DNA of 39,270 bases from a virus. Location: positions 1 through 39,270 of IMG/VR virus record IMGVR_UViG_3300027899_000587. One strand, 5' to 3'. Shown one piece after another: positions 2,752-39,270 of the stretch (the first letter of the stretch is position 1; each line of letters begins with the position of its first letter). The notes beneath the pieces were generated by a model. That model made no database searches. It had not been told where the DNA came from and saw only the letters and a program-made list of their open reading frames with translations. The translations under genes and the position numbers were made by a program.

Positions 2752-3654
2752 TTATGCGATATTTAATATGTCAAACATCTTCTTAAATCTTATGTCGTAT
2801 GTGTTTTCGTAGCTTTCTTTATGAGCTTTTTCTACTATCGCTTTTCGTGCTTCTTCATGCTCTAAATAATAATCTCTTAACTCCAAAGCTTCCTCAAAAG
2901 TATCAAAATATACACGATTCTTAAATAACTTTTCACAATTAGGGAATCGTTTAGTCAAAGGGAATCCATACATCGCTGGAATATTCCAAAACCTGTTTGA
3001 TGTGTAGCTGTCTATGTTGGTAAAGTGACTTATATCAAGACAAATTTTAGCCGACGAATAAATCTGTGGCATTTTTTCCATTATTTTAGCCCTTAGTCTA
3101 TCTTCAAAGCTATTAATAACCATTAATCCATTTTCCTCAAAGCGATTAATCTCTAAAGCTCTATCAATAAAGTTAGCTGATGTGATTTTTCCACCTATAA
3201 ATATAAAATCAAAAGCAAAGTGTTCGTTGTACATCGGCTTATCAAGTGGTTCTGCCCCCAAAGGTAAAAAGTGACATTCTTTTACTTTCCATATCTTCTT
3301 GTACATATTATTCTGTCCGTTATTAGATACAAACATAGCGTCTAATTCAGAACAATCTGCTGTAATTTGCGAATCCATCAATCTTAAATCGCCATACCAC
3401 ATTACAATTTTAGCTTGTGGGTTTTCTTTTCTGATTCTATCTCGCCAGTCTTTGTGTTTAACCATGTCGAGTAGTCCATAAACAATTAAATCTGGCTTAA
3501 ATTCTTGTATAGTTTCAAAGTCATGGAATGTTGGGCGACACGATAGAAATAAGTGAGGATAACCAAGACGTTTAAGTCCAGCCTTAACCCCTTTAAAGTT
3601 AGGACAATGTTTTTCAAGTTCAGGGTAATCTGCTCCCACATATACTATTCTCAT
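2752..3654 (-). CDS. CgeB-like glycosyltransferase (GT-B type)
   Basis: A 300-residue protein with the two-Rossmann layout of CgeB/YkvP-type glycosyltransferases. The N-terminal half has MRIVYVGADYPELEK and DLIVYGLLD. The C-terminal half has FDFIFIGGK, a sugar-nucleotide-side segment SYTSNRFWNIPAMYGFPL, and YFDTFEEALELRDYYLEHEEAR, which is typical of this family. The donor and acceptor cannot be told. Last gene of the glycan cassette; its start overlaps the methyltransferase stop by 4 bp (ATGA). Confidence 0.75.
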   Translation of the reverse strand: MRIVYVGADYPELEKHCPNFKGVKAGLKRLGYPHLFLSCRPTFHDFETIQEFKPDLIVYGLLDMVKHKDWRDRIRKENPQAKIVMWYGDLRLMDSQITADCSELDAMFVSNNGQNNMYKKIWKVKECHFLPLGAEPLDKPMYNEHFAFDFIFIGGKITSANFIDRALEINRFEENGLMVINSFEDRLRAKIMEKMPQIYSSAKICLDISHFTNIDSYTSNRFWNIPAMYGFPLTKRFPNCEKLFKNRVYFDTFEEALELRDYYLEHEEARKAIVEKAHKESYENTYDIRFKKMFDILNIA

Positions 3655-4094
3655 TTTATTAAAGTTACGGTTAATATCCCCCTCTCATTTTCTACAACGC
3701 TTTCCATTTTCCACGCTTTGAATCCGTAAACTGAACCATACAACTGATAGTGTCTATCACCCTCTATAAAATAATTAAACGTCGGTATTGTAAATTTCCT
3801 ACAATCCATCGGGTCTTGGTGGGCTATTGCGTATTTAGCATTAGGCACAATGATAGTTAATTTACCACCATTCTCTAAGACTCTGTGGCACTCGTTCATA
3901 GCGTTAATGAGTCCACTATTTTCTAGTATCTGCTCTAAGACTCCTGAACAATATATTTCACTTGCCGAGTTATCTTCAAAAGGAAACGTATCTGTTACAC
4001 TAAAATAATAGTCTGCTTTTGTTTCATGTGAAATGTCGGTATTTACCCAGCCATCTCTGTAATCTCTACCACAACCCAAATTTATTTTATTCAT
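3651..4094 (-). CDS. SAM-dependent class I methyltransferase
   Basis: A 147-residue protein starting with the SAM-binding motif INLGCG (residues 4-9), then an acidic DIS motif and HRVLENGGKLTIIVPNA, the post-motif region of class I methyltransferases. It is short for the fold (usually about 200-250), so it is a minimal enzyme. In this context it could methylate a sugar. It overlaps both neighbours by 4-8 bp. Confidence 0.75.
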   Translation of the reverse strand: MNKINLGCGRDYRDGWVNTDISHETKADYYFSVTDTFPFEDNSASEIYCSGVLEQILENSGLINAMNECHRVLENGGKLTIIVPNAKYAIAHQDPMDCRKFTIPTFNYFIEGDRHYQLYGSVYGFKAWKMESVVENERGILTVTLIK

Positions 4095-4872
4095 ATATTT
4101 TTTTTATTCTTGGTATTTTATGACGACCATTTAAATTTAACATTGGTGCTACCTTACCCTGTGACGCCACGTCACCACTATAAATCTCTGAACCATGAAC
4201 GAGGAATCTATTAGGGAATGAAACTATCTTGTATCCCAATTCAAGTATTTGAGATTGAAATACACACTCGTTAAATGAGGGGCTTTTGCCTGTGCCTTTC
4301 CCAACATCAAACACTGTAAGTCCTCCAATTTTATCAATCTCTTTAAGAATCTTTGCCGACGTGAATGTATAAGCACCATCTAAATTATACATCATATCTC
4401 TAGTGTGTCCCATAACTTCCCATAACTGACCACTTCCATTTTCGTCTTTACTTCTGCCCTCTACCCAATTACCAACTGCCCCTATATCTTTTGATGACAT
4501 GAACTTTAAAAGTATTTCTGATAGCCAGTTATTCTTTGCTGGGGCTATGTCGTCTTCGTTGAATAGATAGAAATCATACTTGTCACCGAACTCCTCCCAA
4601 GCTTGCTTATATGCTCCAAAACTATATCCAAAGTTTTCTTTTTTAAGAGTAATGTATGGCAAATCTGGGCAATCTCCGTGGTCAACTAAAATTATGTCGT
4701 AATCTACACCTGCCTTAAACTTCTTATGTGCGTTTAAATTCATCATCAAAGTTTCTAACTTATTCTCAATAAAATAGTTATAGTCTTTTCTAACGATATA
4801 AACTGGAATAATACAAGCTATCTTGGGCTGTACATTCGGGTGTTTAGGGTCTGTGTAAAATCCTTCTATCAT
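4087..4872 (-). CDS. GT-A type glycosyltransferase
   Basis: A 261-residue protein. An N-terminal IACIIPVYIVRKDYNYF strand, YDIILVDHGD, and an acidic metal-site candidate NEDD (residues 105-108) fit a GT-A/GT2 fold. Later segments (GAYTFTSAKILKEI, NECVFQSQILELGYKI) match the acceptor side of GT2 enzymes. Substrates are unknown. Overlaps its neighbours by 4 and 8 bp. Confidence 0.7.
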   Translation of the reverse strand: MIEGFYTDPKHPNVQPKIACIIPVYIVRKDYNYFIENKLETLMMNLNAHKKFKAGVDYDIILVDHGDCPDLPYITLKKENFGYSFGAYKQAWEEFGDKYDFYLFNEDDIAPAKNNWLSEILLKFMSSKDIGAVGNWVEGRSKDENGSGQLWEVMGHTRDMMYNLDGAYTFTSAKILKEIDKIGGLTVFDVGKGTGKSPSFNECVFQSQILELGYKIVSFPNRFLVHGSEIYSGDVASQGKVAPMLNLNGRHKIPRIKKIYE

Positions 4873-5546
4873 TTTGTTAGATATTTAAATAACTCTCTAG
4901 CGTATAATTTATCTGACTCCCTAATAGGGTCTGAATTGAACGAGTACGACCCCATATGTTCTACTCTCGTATCTTTACGCATTATCGCTCCACCTATCTT
5001 CTTAGCACGATAAGCCCACTCAGAATCTTGACCGTAAATGTAAAATCGCTCATCAAATTCTCCTATCGTTTCATAAGCAGACTTCGTAAACAAGAAACAA
5101 TAGCCACTCCAAATATCTGCGTTACGTTCAAATGATGGGTATGCTTCGGCTTGCATGACATGTTGTCTAGCACCACCTCCACATGACGATACGGGAATAA
5201 CTAGACCAGTTTCATCTATACTTTCCATCATCTTAGTCAACCAACAAGGCTCGCCCTCTTTTGTAACTGGTACAAAGGCGTCGGAGTCAATCAACATCAC
5301 ATAGTCGCATGTACTTTCTTTCACTAACTTATTCCATATCTTTGAGGTGTTTGCTGTATTAAGACGATTATCAAATACAGTCAATTTAAATGGGTGATTT
5401 GTGTTGTGAATTATCCTAGTAATTGCCTTATCAATCACCTCTGGGGCTTCTTTGAATTTAAGCATGATAATCTCAACCCTCCGAGTTTCTTTATCGTCGG
5501 TTAAAGGTTTCTCGGCCATTTGTTTCATTTCTTCTATTTTATCCAT
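4869..5546 (-). CDS. Family 2 glycosyltransferase
   Basis: A 225-residue GT2-like enzyme. Residues 55-60 (LTVFDN) and the metal-binding motif IDSDA (86-90, a DxD) are present. The QDSEW segment (173-177) corresponds to the usual ED.. catalytic region, followed by a VEHMGS ending (about 195-200). Cytosolic, with no membrane segment. It overlaps the GNAT gene by 13 bp and the next glycosyltransferase by 4 bp. Confidence 0.8.
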   Translation of the reverse strand: MDKIEEMKQMAEKPLTDDKETRRVEIIMLKFKEAPEVIDKAITRIIHNTNHPFKLTVFDNRLNTANTSKIWNKLVKESTCDYVMLIDSDAFVPVTKEGEPCWLTKMMESIDETGLVIPVSSCGGGARQHVMQAEAYPSFERNADIWSGYCFLFTKSAYETIGEFDERFYIYGQDSEWAYRAKKIGGAIMRKDTRVEHMGSYSFNSDPIRESDKLYARELFKYLTK

Positions 5547-5833
5547 AATCTATATGCGTGGTTATGTCGGTCTGTAAAACCGAGCTTCTTATAAAATGTT
5601 TGCACTTTTTCGTTGTCTTCTCTGACTGTTAATTCAATACAATCTAACTTTAAGGACTTTCCTTTCTCAATAGCTCGCTCAATTAACCTAGTGGCCCTGC
5701 CTTGATTGCGATATTCCTCCTCAGTCTTAACCTCCTCAATTACGCCCAAATACCTTGATGGTAGTTTAACTGTGTAAAGTATCAGTGATGAAACTATACG
5801 CCCTTTGATTTTGTCATTAAACTTATAAATCAT
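5534..5833 (-). CDS. GNAT N-acetyltransferase
   Basis: A 99-residue GNAT-fold protein. The acetyl-CoA loop RNQGRA (42-47) matches the R/Q-x-x-G-x-G/A motif A. The C-terminal FYKKLGF is the usual motif B ending. It is short for the family (about 140-200), so the N-terminal strands are reduced. It sits directly after a sugar aminotransferase, an order also seen for the GNAT enzyme WecD with WecE. Acetylation of an amino sugar is therefore the best guess, not proven. Confidence 0.75.
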   Translation of the reverse strand: MIYKFNDKIKGRIVSSLILYTVKLPSRYLGVIEEVKTEEEYRNQGRATRLIERAIEKGKSLKLDCIELTVREDNEKVQTFYKKLGFTDRHNHAYRLWIK

Positions 5834-6797
5834 TGACGTATTTTTTAATCTTTCTTAACGGTAGTTGCGAGTACATAGGAAGTAAACGCCAACTATCTTC
5901 TAATTTATCCATCATGGGACAATCATTTTTAAACTTCTTAAAGACTGTATATTTATCGTTCCTAAAATGATGTTGTTCACCTTGTTTGCCGTACTGAATA
6001 CATAACCATATGTGACAAGTGATATTAGGAAACGAGTTATAGTATTTCATTAGCCTTTTACGCTTGGCTATGACCTTATCAATCACAGCTAGGTTTCCTC
6101 TACCAATCGCAGCCGTGATATTGTTCATGTGCCACTTATAGCCAGCTTCCAGTAAATCTGTATCACCTAACTTCTGTTTTAGCTCTCTATCATAACCAAA
6201 CCATCTTAATCTCCTTGCTTTTTCGTAATCTTCTTTTGTTTTTGTAAGGAGAATCCCACCGTCGCCACTTGTGAGGGTTTTGATAGCTTGGAGTGATATA
6301 CAAGTGTAGTCTGCTTTACCCCAGTAATCGCTTCCGATAACTTGAGCCGCATCTTCAATGAGTGTGATGTTATGTTCTTTGCAAATCTCAAGCAACTCTC
6401 TAAGTCCTCTATTGTTTCCACCGAAGTGGACAAAGACAATGGCTTTTGTTTTTTTAGTGATTTTTCTTTTGACATCTTCTATGTTTATATTTAAGTCTAT
6501 ATCTATGTCGGCAAATACTATCTTACAACCCTTTCTAATAAGTGGTAGGTTAGTTGCTGTACATGTTAAAACTGGCGTAATAACCTCATCACCCTTTCCT
6601 ATTCCTGCAAGCTCGTAGGCAAGCTCTAGGGCTGTTGTACCACTGTTTAAGGCGACGACGTTATCAACCCCAAACTTCTGTCCAAATTCTTCCTCAAACT
6701 TCTTAACTTCCTTGCCCTCGGCAAGTTGTGAACCTAGCAATACTCTAACTACATTAAAGATTGCTCTATAACTGACGTATGGTTTAAATAATCTCAT
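5823..6797 (-). CDS. DegT/DnrJ/EryC1-type sugar aminotransferase (PLP)
   Basis: A 324-residue PLP enzyme expected to convert a keto-sugar nucleotide to an amino sugar. Visible are ALNSGTTALELA (49-60), GDEVITP, the PLP ring-contact motif EDAAQ (148-152, D149), and the Schiff-base lysine in SLQAIKTLTSGDGG (K173). It is somewhat shorter than the usual 370-400 residues. It overlaps the dehydratase by 4 bp and the GNAT by 11 bp, which suggests a three-step pathway. Confidence 0.9.
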   Translation of the reverse strand: MRLFKPYVSYRAIFNVVRVLLGSQLAEGKEVKKFEEEFGQKFGVDNVVALNSGTTALELAYELAGIGKGDEVITPVLTCTATNLPLIRKGCKIVFADIDIDLNINIEDVKRKITKKTKAIVFVHFGGNNRGLRELLEICKEHNITLIEDAAQVIGSDYWGKADYTCISLQAIKTLTSGDGGILLTKTKEDYEKARRLRWFGYDRELKQKLGDTDLLEAGYKWHMNNITAAIGRGNLAVIDKVIAKRKRLMKYYNSFPNITCHIWLCIQYGKQGEQHHFRNDKYTVFKKFKNDCPMMDKLEDSWRLLPMYSQLPLRKIKKYVNDL

Positions 6798-7708
6798 TGT
6801 AAATAATCGGTTAAAGATTCCTCAAATGAATAACGTGGAGTCCAACCTAACTCCCTTAGTCTTGAAGAATCCATTTGATAAATTGAGTCCATTCCCTCTC
6901 GATGTGAATCGTGTACGGTACATTTCTTCTTAGTAATACTCTGTGCCTTGCCTATCAACTCATTTACGCTGTACAAATCATTGTTAGTGACGTTGTAAGT
7001 TCTATGACCTTTTTCCAACACTAACTTAATCATTGGAGGGACATTTTTAACGTATAAATACTCTCTATAACCTACTCCACCGTTATGAAGTGGTATTGAA
7101 TAGTTACCCTCTAGGCTTTCCTTAATAGCTGGCATGATTTTACGCTTATCTTGACGCTCTCCAAAGATATTGCACATGCGAATCTCAGTGGTTTTGTCTT
7201 TTAACTCTGGGAATGAGTTATCAAATGCCAATCTCATCAAAGAACCAACTGCCTTTGAACATGAGTATGGATTTTTAGGAAAAATTATATCAGTTTCGTT
7301 TTTCTTAATCTCACACTCTCCATAAATTTCATCAGTTGATACATATAAAAGCTTTTTAAGACTAGGTAAGTCCCTGCACGCTTCAAATACGTTCAGATTT
7401 GCCAAAATATTGGCTTCTAAGACGTGATAAGGGTATTTTATGGAATAATCTACATCTGAATACGCACCTGCGTGTACAACGTACTGTGGGGCTTCTGAGC
7501 GTATGACCTCAATTACCTCTCTACTTGATAAATCCATCTCATAAAACTTAAAATTGTCATACTTCTTCCATTCTTCTAATAGTTCAGGGTGCGAACCTGC
7601 TGAAAGGTTATCAATTCCAACTACTTGCCAACCTAACTCTAAAAAGTAGTCTGTGACGTGTGAGAAAATGAACCCACAATTTCCCGTTAAAAGTAGTTTA
7701 TTTTTCAT
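6794..7708 (-). CDS. NAD-dependent sugar-nucleotide 4,6-dehydratase-like SDR
   Basis: A 304-residue extended SDR. The NAD-binding motif is TGNCGFIFSH (8-17), where the third glycine of the usual GxxGFIG is replaced by F. The catalytic STDEIYG (124-130) carries the Thr-Asp-Glu of 4,6-dehydratases rather than epimerases. The YxxxK pair is Y148/K152. It probably supplies the 4-keto-6-deoxy sugar for the neighbouring aminotransferase. No sugar nucleotidyltransferase is present, so the host would provide the substrate. Confidence 0.8.
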   Translation of the reverse strand: MKNKLLLTGNCGFIFSHVTDYFLELGWQVVGIDNLSAGSHPELLEEWKKYDNFKFYEMDLSSREVIEVIRSEAPQYVVHAGAYSDVDYSIKYPYHVLEANILANLNVFEACRDLPSLKKLLYVSTDEIYGECEIKKNETDIIFPKNPYSCSKAVGSLMRLAFDNSFPELKDKTTEIRMCNIFGERQDKRKIMPAIKESLEGNYSIPLHNGGVGYREYLYVKNVPPMIKLVLEKGHRTYNVTNNDLYSVNELIGKAQSITKKKCTVHDSHREGMDSIYQMDSSRLRELGWTPRYSFEESLTDYLQ

Positions 7709-8615
7709 TTTTTAAATTTGGTTGTGGTATTGGGTCAACCTTTGGTTTGTCACCGAATAATTCCTCCATTTTAGCTTTGTTGTCATCTTCATATCCTATA
7801 AATGTGAATCCTTTTCTTTTAAGTGTTTCTGCCATGTCCTTCTCGGGTATATCGTAAATATATCCTGATGGATTCCTGACATAAACAAATCTTTTCTTTA
7901 TAGCTGGCATAAATTTTTTAATCATTGGATTACTTTCTTTTTTAATTGCATTTCTAATAAATTCCTCATCAATCGGCTCGCAAGTATCAGACTTTAAGGC
8001 TTCATAATAGCTTCTATCACGATACTTTGCCTTTGGGTCATACTTCTCATACCTCTCAACTTTCCTTTGGCGTGCGTCTTTATCTTTTAACCCATAGTGC
8101 CAAAGCAGTATTGGCACATAAGAGCCATAATTATACGCCCACTCTGGGGCAAGCCCACAATGAAGCGGTCTATTGATAAACTTGCAATTACCATTCCACT
8201 TCCAAGCTCTTATATTCCAAAAGCTCCACGCCTTTTTCCAACCATCATTCCATAGATTGGCAATATAAACATACATTGAGTCTGTTTTATCCATTAAAAG
8301 CTCTAAATCTTCTCTTGAAACGTCTAAGACCTCATCCATATCAAGACAAACAAGCCACTCTGGTCTATAAGCTTCTAAAGATTCCACAAAATCTTGTTTA
8401 ATTTTGTTCTGATTTAATCCCCATTCTCGATTATCCTTTCGTAACTCAAACCCATAGCTTGCTATCAAGTCCTCACTTGCCCTATCTATGTTGTTACCCA
8501 TTATAACTACTCTATCGCACAACTTTTTAAAGCAATCTAAAGTGCCTTTGAGGTAACGTTCGTTAGCCCCACATATTCCGTAACCAATGATATTATAGCG
8601 ATTTGAGGTACTCAT
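7698..8615 (-). CDS. Glycosyltransferase with an added C-terminal phage-type domain
   Basis: A 305-residue protein. The N-terminal part is GT2-like: YNIIGYGICGANERYL, RVVIMGNNIDRASEDLI and the DxD motif LDMDE (91-95). The C-terminal part (about 242-305) is different. It contains FVYVRNPSGYIYDIP and AETLKRKGFTFIGYEDD, resembling small virion-associated proteins, then a proline-rich tail. Its start lies 22 bp inside the preceding head-region gene, so it is translated with virion genes. Substrate unknown. Confidence 0.7.
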   Translation of the reverse strand: MSTSNRYNIIGYGICGANERYLKGTLDCFKKLCDRVVIMGNNIDRASEDLIASYGFELRKDNREWGLNQNKIKQDFVESLEAYRPEWLVCLDMDEVLDVSREDLELLMDKTDSMYVYIANLWNDGWKKAWSFWNIRAWKWNGNCKFINRPLHCGLAPEWAYNYGSYVPILLWHYGLKDKDARQRKVERYEKYDPKAKYRDRSYYEALKSDTCEPIDEEFIRNAIKKESNPMIKKFMPAIKKRFVYVRNPSGYIYDIPEKDMAETLKRKGFTFIGYEDDNKAKMEELFGDKPKVDPIPQPNLKNEK

Positions 8616-20863: not shown

Positions 20864-21592
20864 ATGGCGACAAAAGGCGTAAAACAATCAGAAGAACATA
20901 TAAAGAAAAGGTGTTTAGCACTAAAAGGAAAATTTGTTTCTGAAAAGATAAAGTTAAAGATTAGTAGAACACTTAAAGGCAGAAAGATGTCAGATGAACA
21001 AAAGGCGAAACTAAGACTTTACTGGAATAATAAACCAAGAATGTCCGAAGAAACTAAGGACAAGATAAGGAAAGCAAATTTTGGTAAATTAATGACTCCA
21101 GAACAAATCCAAAAATTAAGAGATTCACATACTGGTAAAAAACTTACTGAAAAGACAAAAGAAAAACTTAGACTTTATTGGACTGGTAGAAAGAGAGGTC
21201 CTGCATCAGAAAAAGAAAGAGCTAGATTATTAAGTTATGTGAAAGGAAAAGTAACTTCAATAGAAACTAGAAAAAAGTTAAGTGAAATTGGAAAGAAACG
21301 AGTATCTGATGGATTACATAATAACTACAAAGGAGGAATTACTAAAGATAATATAAGAATAAGAGTAAGTTTAGAATATAGACTATGGAGAGAATCGGTT
21401 TTTAAAAGAGATAACTTTACTTGTATATGGTGTGGGCAAGTTGGAGGTAAAATACAGGCAGACCATATAAAACCATTTGCATATTATCCAGAATTACGAT
21501 TTGCGATAGATAACGGTAGAACATTATGTAAACCATGTCACTTAAAAACAGATACTTGGGGTAATAGACATTATAAAATCAACCATAAATAA
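20864..21592 (+). CDS. NUMOD3-HNH (homing-type) endonuclease
   Basis: A 242-residue protein. Four or more short basic repeats of the type EETK(D/E)KIR.A..GK (about 20-160) are NUMOD3 DNA-binding modules. The C-terminus is an HNH nuclease: FKRDNFTCIWCG, QADHIKPF (catalytic H), FAIDNGRTLCKPCH. Such genes are usually selfish and spread by cutting unoccupied phage alleles. It forms a cluster with small early genes. Confidence 0.85.
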   Translation: MATKGVKQSEEHIKKRCLALKGKFVSEKIKLKISRTLKGRKMSDEQKAKLRLYWNNKPRMSEETKDKIRKANFGKLMTPEQIQKLRDSHTGKKLTEKTKEKLRLYWTGRKRGPASEKERARLLSYVKGKVTSIETRKKLSEIGKKRVSDGLHNNYKGGITKDNIRIRVSLEYRLWRESVFKRDNFTCIWCGQVGGKIQADHIKPFAYYPELRFAIDNGRTLCKPCHLKTDTWGNRHYKINHK

Positions 21593-26417: not shown

Positions 26418-26504
26418 TGGTGGTAAATAACAGAGTCGAACTGTCAGTCTATCTTGTTCCCCTTTCGGGTACAGAAGAGTGTTTTCCCGTTAAACTAATT
26501 TACC
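26418..26504 (-). tRNA. tRNA-like gene with a 19-nt anticodon loop
   Basis: On the minus strand, acceptor arms GGTAAAT (26498-26504) and ATTTACC (26422-26428) pair perfectly, followed by A-CCA. The D-arm is GTTT/AAAC with G18G19; the T-arm is GACAG-TTCGACT-CTGTT. The anticodon stem CTCTT/AAGAT holds a 19-nt loop with an internal CCC-GAAA-GGG hairpin. Removing 12 nt gives CTGTAAC (anticodon GTA, Tyr) or CTGGAAC (GGA, Ser). The variable loop is only 5 nt, unlike bacterial tRNA-Tyr and tRNA-Ser. Confidence 0.6.
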
Positions 26505-28953: not shown

Positions 28954-31900
28954 TTATAAGTGTGATAATTCTCTCCATCTAGCCGTTGTAGCGTCATAAA
29001 TAAGCTGAATACTATGGGCTGGTGGAATTTCAACAGTACCTGCTACTGTTGTCATAATTCTGTTTGCTGCCGTACTTGAAGCACTTTCATTTGCAAATGA
29101 TATTTTGTTAGTTGTACCAATGTTTGTAATAAACAAAACATGTCCATCAGTTTGTGCAACAATTCCAGTAACAATTCTATCGGCTGCACCCCCACTTAAC
29201 CTTATAAATGATTTGTTTCCTAAATCATAATTATTAACATCTCCTGACATTATTGTTGGAGTGCTGGAAGTAAGTTTAATAGCTGGGCTTGTAACTGACA
29301 CACTGTTAGTCATAGCCTGACTAAACGTAAACGTTGGAGTTGTTCCAGTTAATGCAAATGTTGTGCTTCCTGTTGAACCGACCGTGGTTGAGAAGTAGTT
29401 TGTAGTGTTATAACCTAGTCGTAATTGTTCTGTTGTCTTTATAGCGTGAATACTTGCCGAAGGTGTTGTGTGTCCAACAGCAAAGTCTTGAGGAGTATAT
29501 GTTTTTGTACTATCTAAGTAGAATAATTCTGGATAGCCTTGTGAGCCAGAGAATATCATCGGAGCTACTTCTCCACCACCTGCACCAGTCAATCCTGATT
29601 GAATGTAGTTTTTTCCTGAAAAGTTAAGGAATAAAACACAACTACTTGCATTACTTACTGCAAAAGAATTACCAACGTTTAATTGTAATGTTGTTAAATT
29701 TGGAGCACCAATAACTGCTTTACCTGAGAAGTAAGATTCACCATATAGGAAAGACACCTTACGCCCAGGAGCACCACCTCCTCCTGATAGTGAAAAATCC
29801 TGATTGGTTGACTGAAAATACAAAACATCTTGTCCACTAAGAGTCCATGGCACAATTCTAAGACCACCAGCATCCGTCTTAAAGTTCATTCCTACAACTG
29901 AACCAGGGGCATAAAAATCAAATTCCTCATAAGACGTAGTACCATAATATCGGAGTTGCATTTTACTTACCCCACCAGTCTTTAAATCTAACCAAGTAGT
30001 TGCTCCACCTGCTACATAATCAATATTCAATCTACCTGTTTCTGTTGTTGCCCCTCCGAGTAGCATATTACCATTTGCGGTTAACTTCATTGCTAATCCT
30101 GTATTTGAACCACCAGTTAAACGAGTGTAGAATCCTAAATCAAAACTCCAATTACCAGCCGTTGCATTTGACTTTAATAATTTAATACCTCCTCCAACTG
30201 TTGAAGAAGTGCCTGTGTAATTACCAAAGAAAGATATACCTCCACCAACTCCTGCTGCTGATGATGTTGTGTCATATAATTGGATATTTGCTGTTGAGTC
30301 TGGTGTACTTACACCTACGGCTTTACTAAAAGTAGTAGCCCCATTGGCTGTTAATACTTGATTAATTACTTGGACACCCGCCGAGTATGTAACAAGATAC
30401 ATTGTACCAGTATTATCTGCACCAGCCCGTACAACCTGAATATTTCCTATTGTATTCTCTACACCAGCATTATCTTGAATTATATAACTTTGTGCTACTC
30501 CAAAACCGTCACCCATATCTCCACTGTGAGTTGCTTTTATTTTTTGAGTTCCGTAAGCTCCATTTGTCGGTGTTGCTGGAGTTCTGTTTACCGTCATTAC
30601 TCCACCCGCTCTATCGCCACTGATATCTAAAAGTCCAAATGTTCCACTCAAAATATTATTAATACTATAAGCGGAAGCACCATCTAGGTGTGTACCCATA
30701 ACCATTTTTGTAGGGTCTGACCAATTTAAAGAATCTACAGCTACTCCATCCATTGACTTTAAAATTCTGTTGTCAATATCAACCGATGTATATGTTGATA
30801 GGTCATTTAAATAGCTTGTTGTTATTGAAGAACCAAAGTATACGGGACTTGGGGTGTTGAATCCATAAGGCGCTCCAGCAGAAGCGTAAAACTCATAAGC
30901 TTCAACCTGACCTTGCATACTCCACCAGTTTGTTGTTTCATCAATTGTAGCTACTACCGTATCGGTAGTGTCGTTAATAATATATAGATTATATCCATCA
31001 CCAAAGTGAAGTTCTTGCCCTATCTTTATTCCTGTACTAAAAAATGGAACTCCAGTAACTGTTTGTGGTGTTGTTTGGTCTAGTTTTACAAGTCCTGACA
31101 CATCAGTAACTCCCACAGGCGATGGAACATCTAAACGAGAGAAAGTATCATCATCAACTGAAAGAGTAACAGTTGGATTAACTCCACCTGCTTGTTTAAT
31201 GGCAATTACCTTAAACATCACTCTAGTTGTAGTTGAATCTATAATCAAAGAACCGCCATAAACAGATGTTGAATATTCTGCGTCAACTAAGGTTAATGGA
31301 ATAGTTAAAGTGGAAGACCTTAAAAGAATCTGATTACCTCCTGCTAAGTCTGTTGTATAAACCTCACCTCTTAATTGAACATCCTTTGCTACATTTGATA
31401 CTTTTGCTGTGAAGTAAAAGAATCTTGAACCCTCTGTAACTCTATATGTTGGAGTTGCAAGCGGTGTTATAAACTCTGCGACAGTTGATTCGCCGTCGGT
31501 TGCTGTGTGGATTATAGTTTGTACTGGGTTCGTAGGAAGTGTTGTTGTTGCAACGTACATTCCACCTACATCAGAAGCGTCTTTAGTAAAGAACCAAGAC
31601 TTAACTCCTCCCGAGGGTGAATTATTTAATTGATTATCTGCGTCAACTCGTACACCATTTGCTGTGTTTGTGACAGTTAAATTTGTGCCAAAATCAATAG
31701 TTGATACACCTTGCTTACTATTAACACGTTCTAGTCCTGAACTTCCACCACCCTCATGTATTATATTCGTAATTGGTTGACGTTCTTTTAACTCTTTAAT
31801 GTCTTTAGCTAGCCCATCAATCTTTTCAACTTTAATAAGAGATGTTTTATCTTCGTTAATCTTAGTTATGATTTGCTCTCCTGTATCTTTGTTCTCAATC

Positions 31901-32088
31901 TCTTTTGTAATTTCAGTTACAATAGGTTGTTCAACCATGACTTCTGTTTTTTCTATTATCTTTTCAACAATAGGTACTTTAATAGTTTTTGCAATTTCCT
32001 TTTTGTCATTTTCAGTCAAAATATAATCACTACCATTTTTGGATATTTCAACCCATTCTTTTCCGTTATATTGATATAGATTAGGCAT
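28954..32088 (-). CDS. Tail fibre, downstream part of a split gene
   Basis: A 1044-residue protein. It begins LYQYNGKEWVEIS, a fragment of a GDLWY...Y.G..W motif, then a charged coiled coil (about 20-110), then about 900 residues of beta-rich repeats low in charge. Its N-terminus lacks an anchoring domain. The matching front part, NPQIGDLWYKN, is the end of the gene at 32545-32808, in the same frame, with an HNH gene between. It is presumably the main receptor-binding fibre. Confidence 0.75.
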   Translation of the reverse strand: MPNLYQYNGKEWVEISKNGSDYILTENDKKEIAKTIKVPIVEKIIEKTEVMVEQPIVTEITKEIENKDTGEQIITKINEDKTSLIKVEKIDGLAKDIKELKERQPITNIIHEGGGSSGLERVNSKQGVSTIDFGTNLTVTNTANGVRVDADNQLNNSPSGGVKSWFFTKDASDVGGMYVATTTLPTNPVQTIIHTATDGESTVAEFITPLATPTYRVTEGSRFFYFTAKVSNVAKDVQLRGEVYTTDLAGGNQILLRSSTLTIPLTLVDAEYSTSVYGGSLIIDSTTTRVMFKVIAIKQAGGVNPTVTLSVDDDTFSRLDVPSPVGVTDVSGLVKLDQTTPQTVTGVPFFSTGIKIGQELHFGDGYNLYIINDTTDTVVATIDETTNWWSMQGQVEAYEFYASAGAPYGFNTPSPVYFGSSITTSYLNDLSTYTSVDIDNRILKSMDGVAVDSLNWSDPTKMVMGTHLDGASAYSINNILSGTFGLLDISGDRAGGVMTVNRTPATPTNGAYGTQKIKATHSGDMGDGFGVAQSYIIQDNAGVENTIGNIQVVRAGADNTGTMYLVTYSAGVQVINQVLTANGATTFSKAVGVSTPDSTANIQLYDTTSSAAGVGGGISFFGNYTGTSSTVGGGIKLLKSNATAGNWSFDLGFYTRLTGGSNTGLAMKLTANGNMLLGGATTETGRLNIDYVAGGATTWLDLKTGGVSKMQLRYYGTTSYEEFDFYAPGSVVGMNFKTDAGGLRIVPWTLSGQDVLYFQSTNQDFSLSGGGGAPGRKVSFLYGESYFSGKAVIGAPNLTTLQLNVGNSFAVSNASSCVLFLNFSGKNYIQSGLTGAGGGEVAPMIFSGSQGYPELFYLDSTKTYTPQDFAVGHTTPSASIHAIKTTEQLRLGYNTTNYFSTTVGSTGSTTFALTGTTPTFTFSQAMTNSVSVTSPAIKLTSSTPTIMSGDVNNYDLGNKSFIRLSGGAADRIVTGIVAQTDGHVLFITNIGTTNKISFANESASSTAANRIMTTVAGTVEIPPAHSIQLIYDATTARWRELSHL

Positions 32089-32091
32089 ATG

Positions 32092-32102
32092 TTTGTGTTA
32101 AT
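32092..32102 (+). repeat. Direct repeat flanking the HNH gene (left copy)
   Basis: TTTGTGTTAAT at 32092-32102, perfect copy at 32539-32549. The distance is 447 bp (149 codons). It contains the -35 (TTGTGT) of the HNH promoter. Confidence 0.6.
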
Positions 32103-32121
32103 GTTCTTAATGGTGTATAAT
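32093..32121 (+). promoter_or_regulatory. Near-leaderless promoter of the HNH gene
   Basis: TTGTGT (32093-32098), 17 bp, TATAAT (32116-32121). The ATG at 32129 follows 7 bases later, so its mRNA would begin at about the start codon. Confidence 0.6.
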
Positions 32122-32128
32122 GAATAGC

Positions 32129-32548
32129 ATGGAAAAACAAAGATTTGAAAGTTTTTATAAAATAATTGATGGCTGTTTTAAATGGATAGGCTATCTTGAT
32201 AAAGATGGTTATGGCACATTTTACTTTAGAAAAAAGAATAGAAAGGCACATAGAGTTAGTTATTTTCTTGAACATGGAGATATTCCTAAAGATTTGGTAG
32301 TAGACCATATATGTCGGAATAGAGACTGTGTTAATCCTAAACATCTTAGATTGGTTACAAAAACAGAAAATACTATGAGTAATTCTTTGTCTGTTGGGGC
32401 AATTAATAGGGCAAAAACTCATTGCAAATATGGACACCCTCTTGATAAAAGATATGGCAAACAAAGATATTGTTCTATATGTAGCAACGAAAAAAGTAAA
32501 AGGCTTCGTAAAAAGTGGTTGGAAGAAGCTAATTCTGTTTTGTGTTAA
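32129..32548 (+). CDS. HNH homing endonuclease inserted in the fibre gene
   Basis: A 139-residue protein. GCFKWIGYLDKDGYGTFYF and KAHRVSYFLEHG lead to VVDHICRNRDCVNPKHLRLVT, the HNH_3 core of phage homing endonucleases; a C-terminal CKYGH...YCSICSNEKSKR may bind zinc. It runs opposite to the fibre genes. ATG 32129 is chosen over 32120 because of the promoter. Its end overlaps the fibre front part by 4 bp. Confidence 0.85.
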   Translation: MEKQRFESFYKIIDGCFKWIGYLDKDGYGTFYFRKKNRKAHRVSYFLEHGDIPKDLVVDHICRNRDCVNPKHLRLVTKTENTMSNSLSVGAINRAKTHCKYGHPLDKRYGKQRYCSICSNEKSKRLRKKWLEEANSVLC

Positions 32549-32549
32549 T
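32539..32549 (+). repeat. Direct repeat flanking the HNH gene (right copy)
   Basis: Second copy of TTTGTGTTAAT. It overlaps the stop codon of the HNH gene and the stop codon of the fibre front part. Confidence 0.6.
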
Positions 32550-32808
32550 TTTTGTACCATAAATCTCCTATTTGTGGGTTAATTGGCTCTGTTTTGCTAA
32601 CTGTGAGAGGATTCCGACCTGACTCTCCTTTTTCTCCTTCCTCGCCTTTTTCCTTTTTAGTAGTTTCTGCAATATCTTTAATCTCTTTTATCTTAGATTC
32701 TAAACCATCTTCTAAATCAAGTATAAGTTCTGTTATACCCTCGCTTCCTTGTTCTACTTTATCAAGGATTTTTGCTACTCGTTTTAGTTTAGATAGTTTT
32801 TCTTCCAT
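32545..32808 (-). CDS. Tail fibre, N-terminal part of the split gene
   Basis: An 87-residue protein. A helical N-terminus (SKLKRVAKILDKVEQGSEGI) is followed by a short collagen-like GEEGEKGESG, then EPINPQIGDLWYKN and stop. The end continues naturally into the start of the next gene (LYQYNGKEWVEIS) after removal of the HNH insert. It probably anchors the fibre. Confidence 0.65.
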   Translation of the reverse strand: MEEKLSKLKRVAKILDKVEQGSEGITELILDLEDGLESKIKEIKDIAETTKKEKGEEGEKGESGRNPLTVSKTEPINPQIGDLWYKN

Positions 32809-38601: not shown

Positions 38602-39078
38602 TTATATTTGTATTACATAATGTGTGCCTTCTCCAACTGTTGTAATATTTACATTTGTAGCTCCACCATCTATTGATGTCTTAAATGTGCCATCTGTCGC
38701 ATTAGTGACTTCGTATGTTGCACCAGTGTTATCTAATCCAGCTGGCAAATCCTTTGTAGTGTAAAACGAGATAATATCACCATTTGAAAAAACATGAGCT
38801 GGGCAAGTAATTACATCGGTTGCTGTGTTTACTGTAAATGTCTTTGGTACGCTTGTTATACTAATTACAGATGTCTTGTCATTATAATTTACTATGATAT
38901 TTGCAAATAAATTTCCGCCCGCTCCGCCCTCATAAAATAGGTCTTCTCTATACTTTAGGAATCCCTGCTTGATTAATGCGTTCTTAAATTCCAAAGGAAA
39001 ATCAACAGGTGAAAGTAATCTCTCTACTTGTTGCTTTAATTCATCTATTTGCTGTTGTAAATTTTGTGTATCGTTCAT
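38602..39078 (-). CDS. Small virion-associated protein
   Basis: A 158-residue protein. A coiled-coil N-terminus (LQQQIDELKQQVERLLSP) leads to a FYEGGAGGNLFANI segment and a beta-rich domain (NTATDVITCPAHVFSNGDII). Widespread in phage tail operons as a hypothetical. Its ATG overlaps the LamG stop (ATGA), and it ends 4 bp before the nozzle gene start. Confidence 0.65.
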   Translation of the reverse strand: MNDTQNLQQQIDELKQQVERLLSPVDFPLEFKNALIKQGFLKYREDLFYEGGAGGNLFANIIVNYNDKTSVISITSVPKTFTVNTATDVITCPAHVFSNGDIISFYTTKDLPAGLDNTGATYEVTNATDGTFKTSIDGGATNVNITTVGEGTHYVIQI

Positions 39079-39270
39079 GATTTGTTAATATTAGTCCACG
39101 TCGTACTGCTCTTATCCTCATTATTCCATGCTGTGCTTGCTTTCGTTCCGTTAGTCCAAGAGGTTACAGACTTAGCGATATTTGTCCAAATTTGCCCTCC
39201 TACGACTAGATTCACTGCGTTCCCTACCATATTGAACACTCCAGTTGCTACTTGCATTACATAGCCTTTT
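39038..39270. repeat. Right copy of the terminal overlap
   Basis: This copies bases 1-233 with four substitutions. All four fall on third codon positions of the LamG gene and are synonymous. It shows that the window closes into a circle and that two related variants contributed to the sequence. Confidence 0.9.
39075..39270 (-). CDS. Partial second copy of the LamG fibre C-terminus (continues at the left end)
   Basis: These bases encode the last residues of the LamG fibre, identical in protein sequence to the full gene at 38-1576 but with four synonymous base differences. It is an artefact of the overlapping ends, not a second gene. The TGA stop overlaps the ATG at 39076-39078, fixing the true neighbour of the LamG gene. 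Confidence 0.85.
   Translation of the reverse strand, partial: KGYVMQVATGVFNMVGNAVNLVVGGQIWTNIAKSVTSWTNGTKASTAWNNEDKSSTTWTNINKS

Follow-up and report, generated by a model that had tools for sequence, protein, structure and literature searches.

The DNA analysed here, called the window below, is an IMG/VR virus record of 39,270 bp in which the late genes lie on the minus strand. The record is taken to be close to a whole phage genome because about 230 bp at one end recur at the other with 98% identity (positions 1-230 and 39037-39270, with 4 mismatches in 230 bp; a circular assembly would match exactly). On the late strand, a tail fibre is encoded in two pieces, ORF1 and ORF2, and a gene for an HNH endonuclease lies antisense at their joint (Table 1). 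The preliminary description had placed such a gene between two fibre pieces that share a reading frame, and both points hold: the gene is recovered in the ORF list and by Pfam and phrog matches, and the distances from the ORF1 start to the ORF2 start (720 nt) and from where the ORF1 stop codon begins to the ORF2 ATG (459 nt) are both multiples of three. ORF1 has a helical-looking start, continues with a short EKGEEGEKGESG stretch and closes on the first half of a GDLWY motif, its C-terminus being ...INPQIGDLWYKN with GDLWYKN last; residues 19-86 give a weak match to a virion structural family (phrog_12329, 1.9e-4). The N-terminus of ORF2 is MPNLYQYNGKEWVEIS, its 1044 codons contain no internal stop, and its C-terminal 97 residues resemble tail fibre proteins of Manatee Spring phages. 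On the far side of ORF1, between it and its upstream gene, the segment 32812-32895 (+) carries GTGTATAAT and, 6 nt on, an ATG that opens an antisense hydrophobic ORF of 21 codons (MFIILFVIVILFLLFCIGWTA).

Table 1. Features at the fibre joint, in coordinates of the window
Feature	Position	Strand	Description	Basis
ORF1	32545..32808	-	87 aa, N-terminal fibre piece	ORF list
Direct repeat copy 1 (TTTGTGTTAAT)	32539..32549	.	on +, end of the HNH ORF (final codons with the stop); on -, ORF1 stop	
HNH homing-type endonuclease gene	32120..32548	+	142 aa, 429 bp, antisense to the fibre	ORF list, Pfam, phrog
Candidate -10 of the HNH gene (TGTATAAT)	32114..32121	+	just upstream of the ATG at 32129	sequence inspection, motif scan
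ORFx	32081..32560	-	159-codon open frame over the whole insert, on the fibre strand	ORF list
Direct repeat copy 2 (TTTGTGTTAAT)	32092..32102	.	on -, leader just upstream of the ORF2 ATG, with the in-frame TAA again	
ORF2	28954..32088	-	1044 aa, remainder of the fibre, starting on the latter motif half (LYQYNGKEW)	ORF list

The host is likely to belong to the Patescibacteria, judging from related genes. Among genomes, a Candidatus Paceibacterota MAG has the best relative of the terminase (52%). For the neighbouring tail gene, a homologue (7.5e-24) is found in a genome of the same phylum, where the adjoining genes resemble, by eye, other structural genes of the phage; Bacteroidota genomes also carry relatives of the terminase. 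A contig from a genome in the phylum of the Paceibacterota MAG has genes like the phage's portal, tail and LamG-like genes, with no GDLWY fibre adjacent to them. Elsewhere in the window, a sugar cassette (2752-8615, -) sits amid the structural genes and is large for a 39-kb phage: it comprises a glycosyltransferase, a methyltransferase, a DegT aminotransferase (1.7e-67), a GDP-mannose 4,6-dehydratase-like epimerase (2.7e-42) and three unmatched proteins. A tRNA gene at 26418-26504 (-), scoring 47.9 bits with the Rfam tRNA model and given a four-base anticodon (gtac) by ARAGORN, may be an unusual tRNA-Tyr, or its anticodon loop may be expanded. Finally, GTGATATAAT recurs 6 to 15 nt before the starts at 2733, 13315 and 36475 on the minus strand; it resembles an extended -10 promoter, which would make the leaders very short.

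The inserted gene encodes an HNH catalytic domain (Pfam HNH_3, PF13392, 1.3e-16, residues 41-85) and matches phrog_826 (7e-38). More than 1200 phage records hold a similar gene, even the closest relatives reaching just about 45% identity across most of their length; none of 380 Patescibacteria genomes does. The gene is free-standing, lying outside any self-splicing intron or intein. An intein was rejected on the stops that the fibre frame contains through the insert, and a group I intron with its own endonuclease on the opposite orientation of the endonuclease and on the Rfam search, which at gathering scores returned no intron family in the window. Transposon insertion was also rejected: the ends of the insert bear a direct repeat only, with no inverted repeats, and the HNH gene is the sole gene inside. 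A second ATG, at 32129, offers an alternative start; the candidate -10 in front of it is a weak one, not listed by the sigma-70 scan. Since the likeness of the protein to its family stops near residue 132, its last codons, including the LC-stop that falls in repeat copy 1, may derive from the target sequence. The phage has a second homing-type gene (20864-21592, +), with NUMOD3 and HNH domains, located in the early region in sense orientation and normal in its codon usage.

That the GDLWY...Y.G..W residues on either side of the insert form a single motif, cut at the joint, had been proposed from the letters of this phage, and other fibres support it. A scan for GDLWYKN found L159, in which VNPVIGDLWYKNDTDVLYQYVNDG lies within one intact frame of 2439 aa and corresponds to INPQIGDLWYKN on one side of the joint and to LYQYNG on the other; among the continuous motifs of other phages this one, VNPVIGDLWYKN-DTDV-LYQY, is the best. 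A query made by fusing ORF1 and ORF2 also aligns across the joint to genes annotated as fibre or structural in unrelated phages (those of Synechococcus, Bacillus, Weissella, Vibrio and Roseobacter), although each match is weak (best E 0.02). Continuous motifs in these annotated fibres include GDLWYDLDSARLYVYNGSAW, GTMWYNMTDGKLYVYMDGKW and GDAWFKSLPNGETEIYVYNGTIW, and 6 to 9 linker residues separate the WY from the next aromatic pair in intact fibres. Because L159 and the annotated fibres carry the motif continuously, the two halves very probably belong to one motif. An orthologue of the whole fibre was found neither in viral_contigs, genome_contigs and the phage records, nor in about 400 genomes of Patescibacteria and 48 virus records chosen for a terminase or tail gene related to that of the phage, and the same collections yielded no insert-free relative of the locus.

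The insert is flanked by direct repeats of TTTGTGTTAAT, as first described; they start at 32092 and 32539, 447 nt apart, and no other copy occurs in the window. Two 40-nt stretches drawn at random from this genome have an 11-mer or longer in common in about 0.1% of draws, and the repeat is thus more than chance provides, but it is short. On the fibre strand it reads ATTAACACAAA, with a TAA in frame in both copies. Removing the insert and one copy gives the joint WYKN-TAA-CAC-AAA-CAT-ATG-CCT-AAT-CTA-TAT. As the preliminary description expected, a single TAA remains; six further codons follow before LYQY. Removal of the insertion therefore does not restore an open frame, as it would for a gene broken up by the entry of an endonuclease (the Aeh1 nrdA type), and for the same reason we rejected an on/off switch of the fibre by excision through the repeat, the product of which keeps the stop. 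The linker from WY to LY in this one-copy joint is 9 positions long, stop included, within the range of intact fibres. A search of viral_contigs for exactly this one-copy joint found no occurrence. RNA hairpins at both joints are no better than those of shuffled sequences. In and beside the repeat, the leader of ORF2 is A-rich and devoid of a Shine-Dalgarno (SD) sequence, the way most genes of this phage start, and CATTAACACAAACAT-ATG resembles the leader of the capsid gene, TAACTTAAACAAACA-ATG.

The question is then which came first, the split or the insertion. If the 11 bp are a duplication, the HNH gene entered a pre-existing stop/start junction, because the TAA is present in both copies. 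The simplest history, which we consider rather probable on an order of events read from the repeat of one genome, is hence that the gene entered a fibre gene that was already split. A stop would first have broken the fibre inside the linker of the GDLWY...LYxYNGxxW motif, and the ATG 9 nt past the TAA would have become a new start for ORF2; this junction would next have taken up the HNH gene, with duplication of 11 bp. The insertion would be tolerated if both fibre pieces were translated separately and assembled in the virion, and the endonuclease would spread by homing. This reading as a whole is favoured by the HNH_3 domain, by the frequency of relatives in phages, by the window being free of intron families, by the continuous motif elsewhere with a linker range that the one-copy joint fits, by the TAA in both copies and the phage-like leader of ORF2, by the 1044 unbroken codons of ORF2 and by the precedents named below. 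For the assembly of the two pieces into a working fibre, we put the chances barely above even. Taken overall, a free-standing antisense HNH gene at the joint of an already two-piece fibre, the pieces of which assemble together, seems to us the best explanation, with somewhat better than an even chance of being right. Some caution is in order. With a probability of about 1e-3 an 11-bp repeat can be a chance occurrence, and target duplications are not a product of homing by break repair as such; if the repeat is no duplication, the stop could postdate the insertion.

Alternatively, the HNH gene may itself have split a continuous fibre gene, as the preliminary description supposed and as mobE is taken to have done in the nrdA gene of phage Aeh1, the stops having arisen with or after the insertion. 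The continuity of the motif in other fibres and the conserved frame of the two halves would agree with this, and gene-splitting HNH insertions are documented (PMC2988022). However, the two repeat copies have their TAA at an identical position, the single-copy allele is not open, and the leader of ORF2 already looks native. We therefore regard splitting by the insertion as possible, though on the unlikely side, and it is not borne out by the joint.

A distinct feature of the insert, absent from the preliminary description, is that the strand opposite the HNH gene is open throughout (ORFx). This frame shares 16 nt with ORF1 and 8 nt with ORF2. Its start, an AGGAG followed after 4 nt (ATTT) by ATG, is the GDLW coding sequence of ORF1 in another frame, and its stop, a TAA inside ATGCCTAA, overlaps the ATG of ORF2. 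It is probably not a functional protein, as it matches no family and contains no D or E residues. Codon-aligned antisense stops come from TTA, CTA and TCA codons, and ORFx crosses the insert because the HNH gene uses none of them: 0 of its 20 Leu and Ser codons (10 of each) are of this kind, where about 10 are expected (P about 3e-7), and in the 32 other genes of the phage they make up 35 to 71% of Leu and Ser codons. This is no general dislike of A. Other purine-ending codons of the gene end in A 32 times and in G 5 times, yet there are 0 TTA and 5 TTG (Fisher 3e-4), and 10 four-fold codons end in A for 12 expected. When the HNH protein was recoded 20,000 times with the codon usage of the phage, the longest antisense run in any frame was at most 121 codons, compared with the 142 observed. 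Avoidance throughout the family was rejected as an explanation: the AT-rich HNH_3 (PF13392)/phrog_826 endonucleases of phages that were compared, members of the same sequence family, use TTA, CTA and TCA in the usual number, as does the second HNH gene of the phage.

Could selection on the late operon, acting once the gene was in place, have cleared the stops from the antisense frame? This proposal, which can be added to either history of the split, would have ribosomes enter within ORF1 at AGGAG-ATTT-ATG and cross the insert by translating ORFx. They would thereby guard the mRNA against polarity of the Rho type and pass translation on to the overlapping start of ORF2. C-rich, G-poor RNA favours Rho when it is untranslated, and on the late mRNA strand the insert is of this type (20% C, 11% G). 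The overlaps at both ends fit as well, and so do the missing stop-making codons in a gene that otherwise ends its codons in A, the shorter runs of the recoded versions and the AT-rich relatives, in which this pattern is missing. Nevertheless, a donor preferring TTG, CTT, TCT and AGT would yield the same pattern, the pattern was spotted post hoc in a single copy, the phage makes little use of SD sequences, and ORFx may never be translated. Such a ribosome bridge is thus doubtful in our estimation, and unusual donor codon usage is the sober reading of the open antisense frame.

It might also be that ORF1 and ORF2 are two ordinary neighbouring genes that never formed one fibre, the HNH gene being simply intergenic and the split motif a coincidence. 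The one-copy allele would indeed give a stop/start junction of normal form, two genes have one chance in three of being placed in frame, and two relatives of the tail cassette (L001 and L002) differ at the position of the joint. Against this, the motif of L159 and similar continuous motifs of other fibres agree with both halves and have roughly the expected spacing, and we hold the coincidence to be improbable. An assembly artefact, or a minority allele in a population where most genomes have no insert, could be invoked for a metagenomic record whose ends overlap at less than 100% identity, but is highly improbable given the intact HNH gene, the precise 11-bp flanks and the phage-like composition.

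Gene-splitting homing endonuclease genes of phages are known mainly from enzyme genes and in sense orientation. In the nrdA gene of Aeromonas phage Aeh1, mobE, a free-standing gene of HNH type, likewise sits between two pieces of one protein (Friedrich et al. 2007, as described in PMC2988022); there, however, the protein is an enzyme and the insertion is taken as the splitter, whereas here a fibre is concerned, the gene is antisense and both repeat copies contain the stop. Closer to the history we favour, that of entry into an already split gene, is seg43(25) in the split gene 43 of Aeromonas phage 25, since the same account allows that the seg gene arrived after the split; it differs in being of seg type and in a polymerase gene, and gene 43 of the related phage 44RR is split by an untranslated spacer (PMC2988022). 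The free-standing endonuclease genes of T4 are described as intergenic, and one of them, segD, is antisense between capsid genes 23 and 24 (PMC2988022), just as F-LimVIII of LIMEstone1 is antisense to the virion genes flanking it (PMC3296691). Both share with our case the antisense position between virion genes, but they separate distinct genes, not the parts of one, and the passages describing them do not mention an open antisense frame.

A two-piece fibre with an antisense insert raises the question of how a virion protein would assemble from halves that are broken inside one motif. If true, translation of ORFx across the insert would spare the invaded operon any harm from an antisense selfish gene and, if the antisense frame was indeed selected, a selfish gene can fit its synonymous codons to its host operon.
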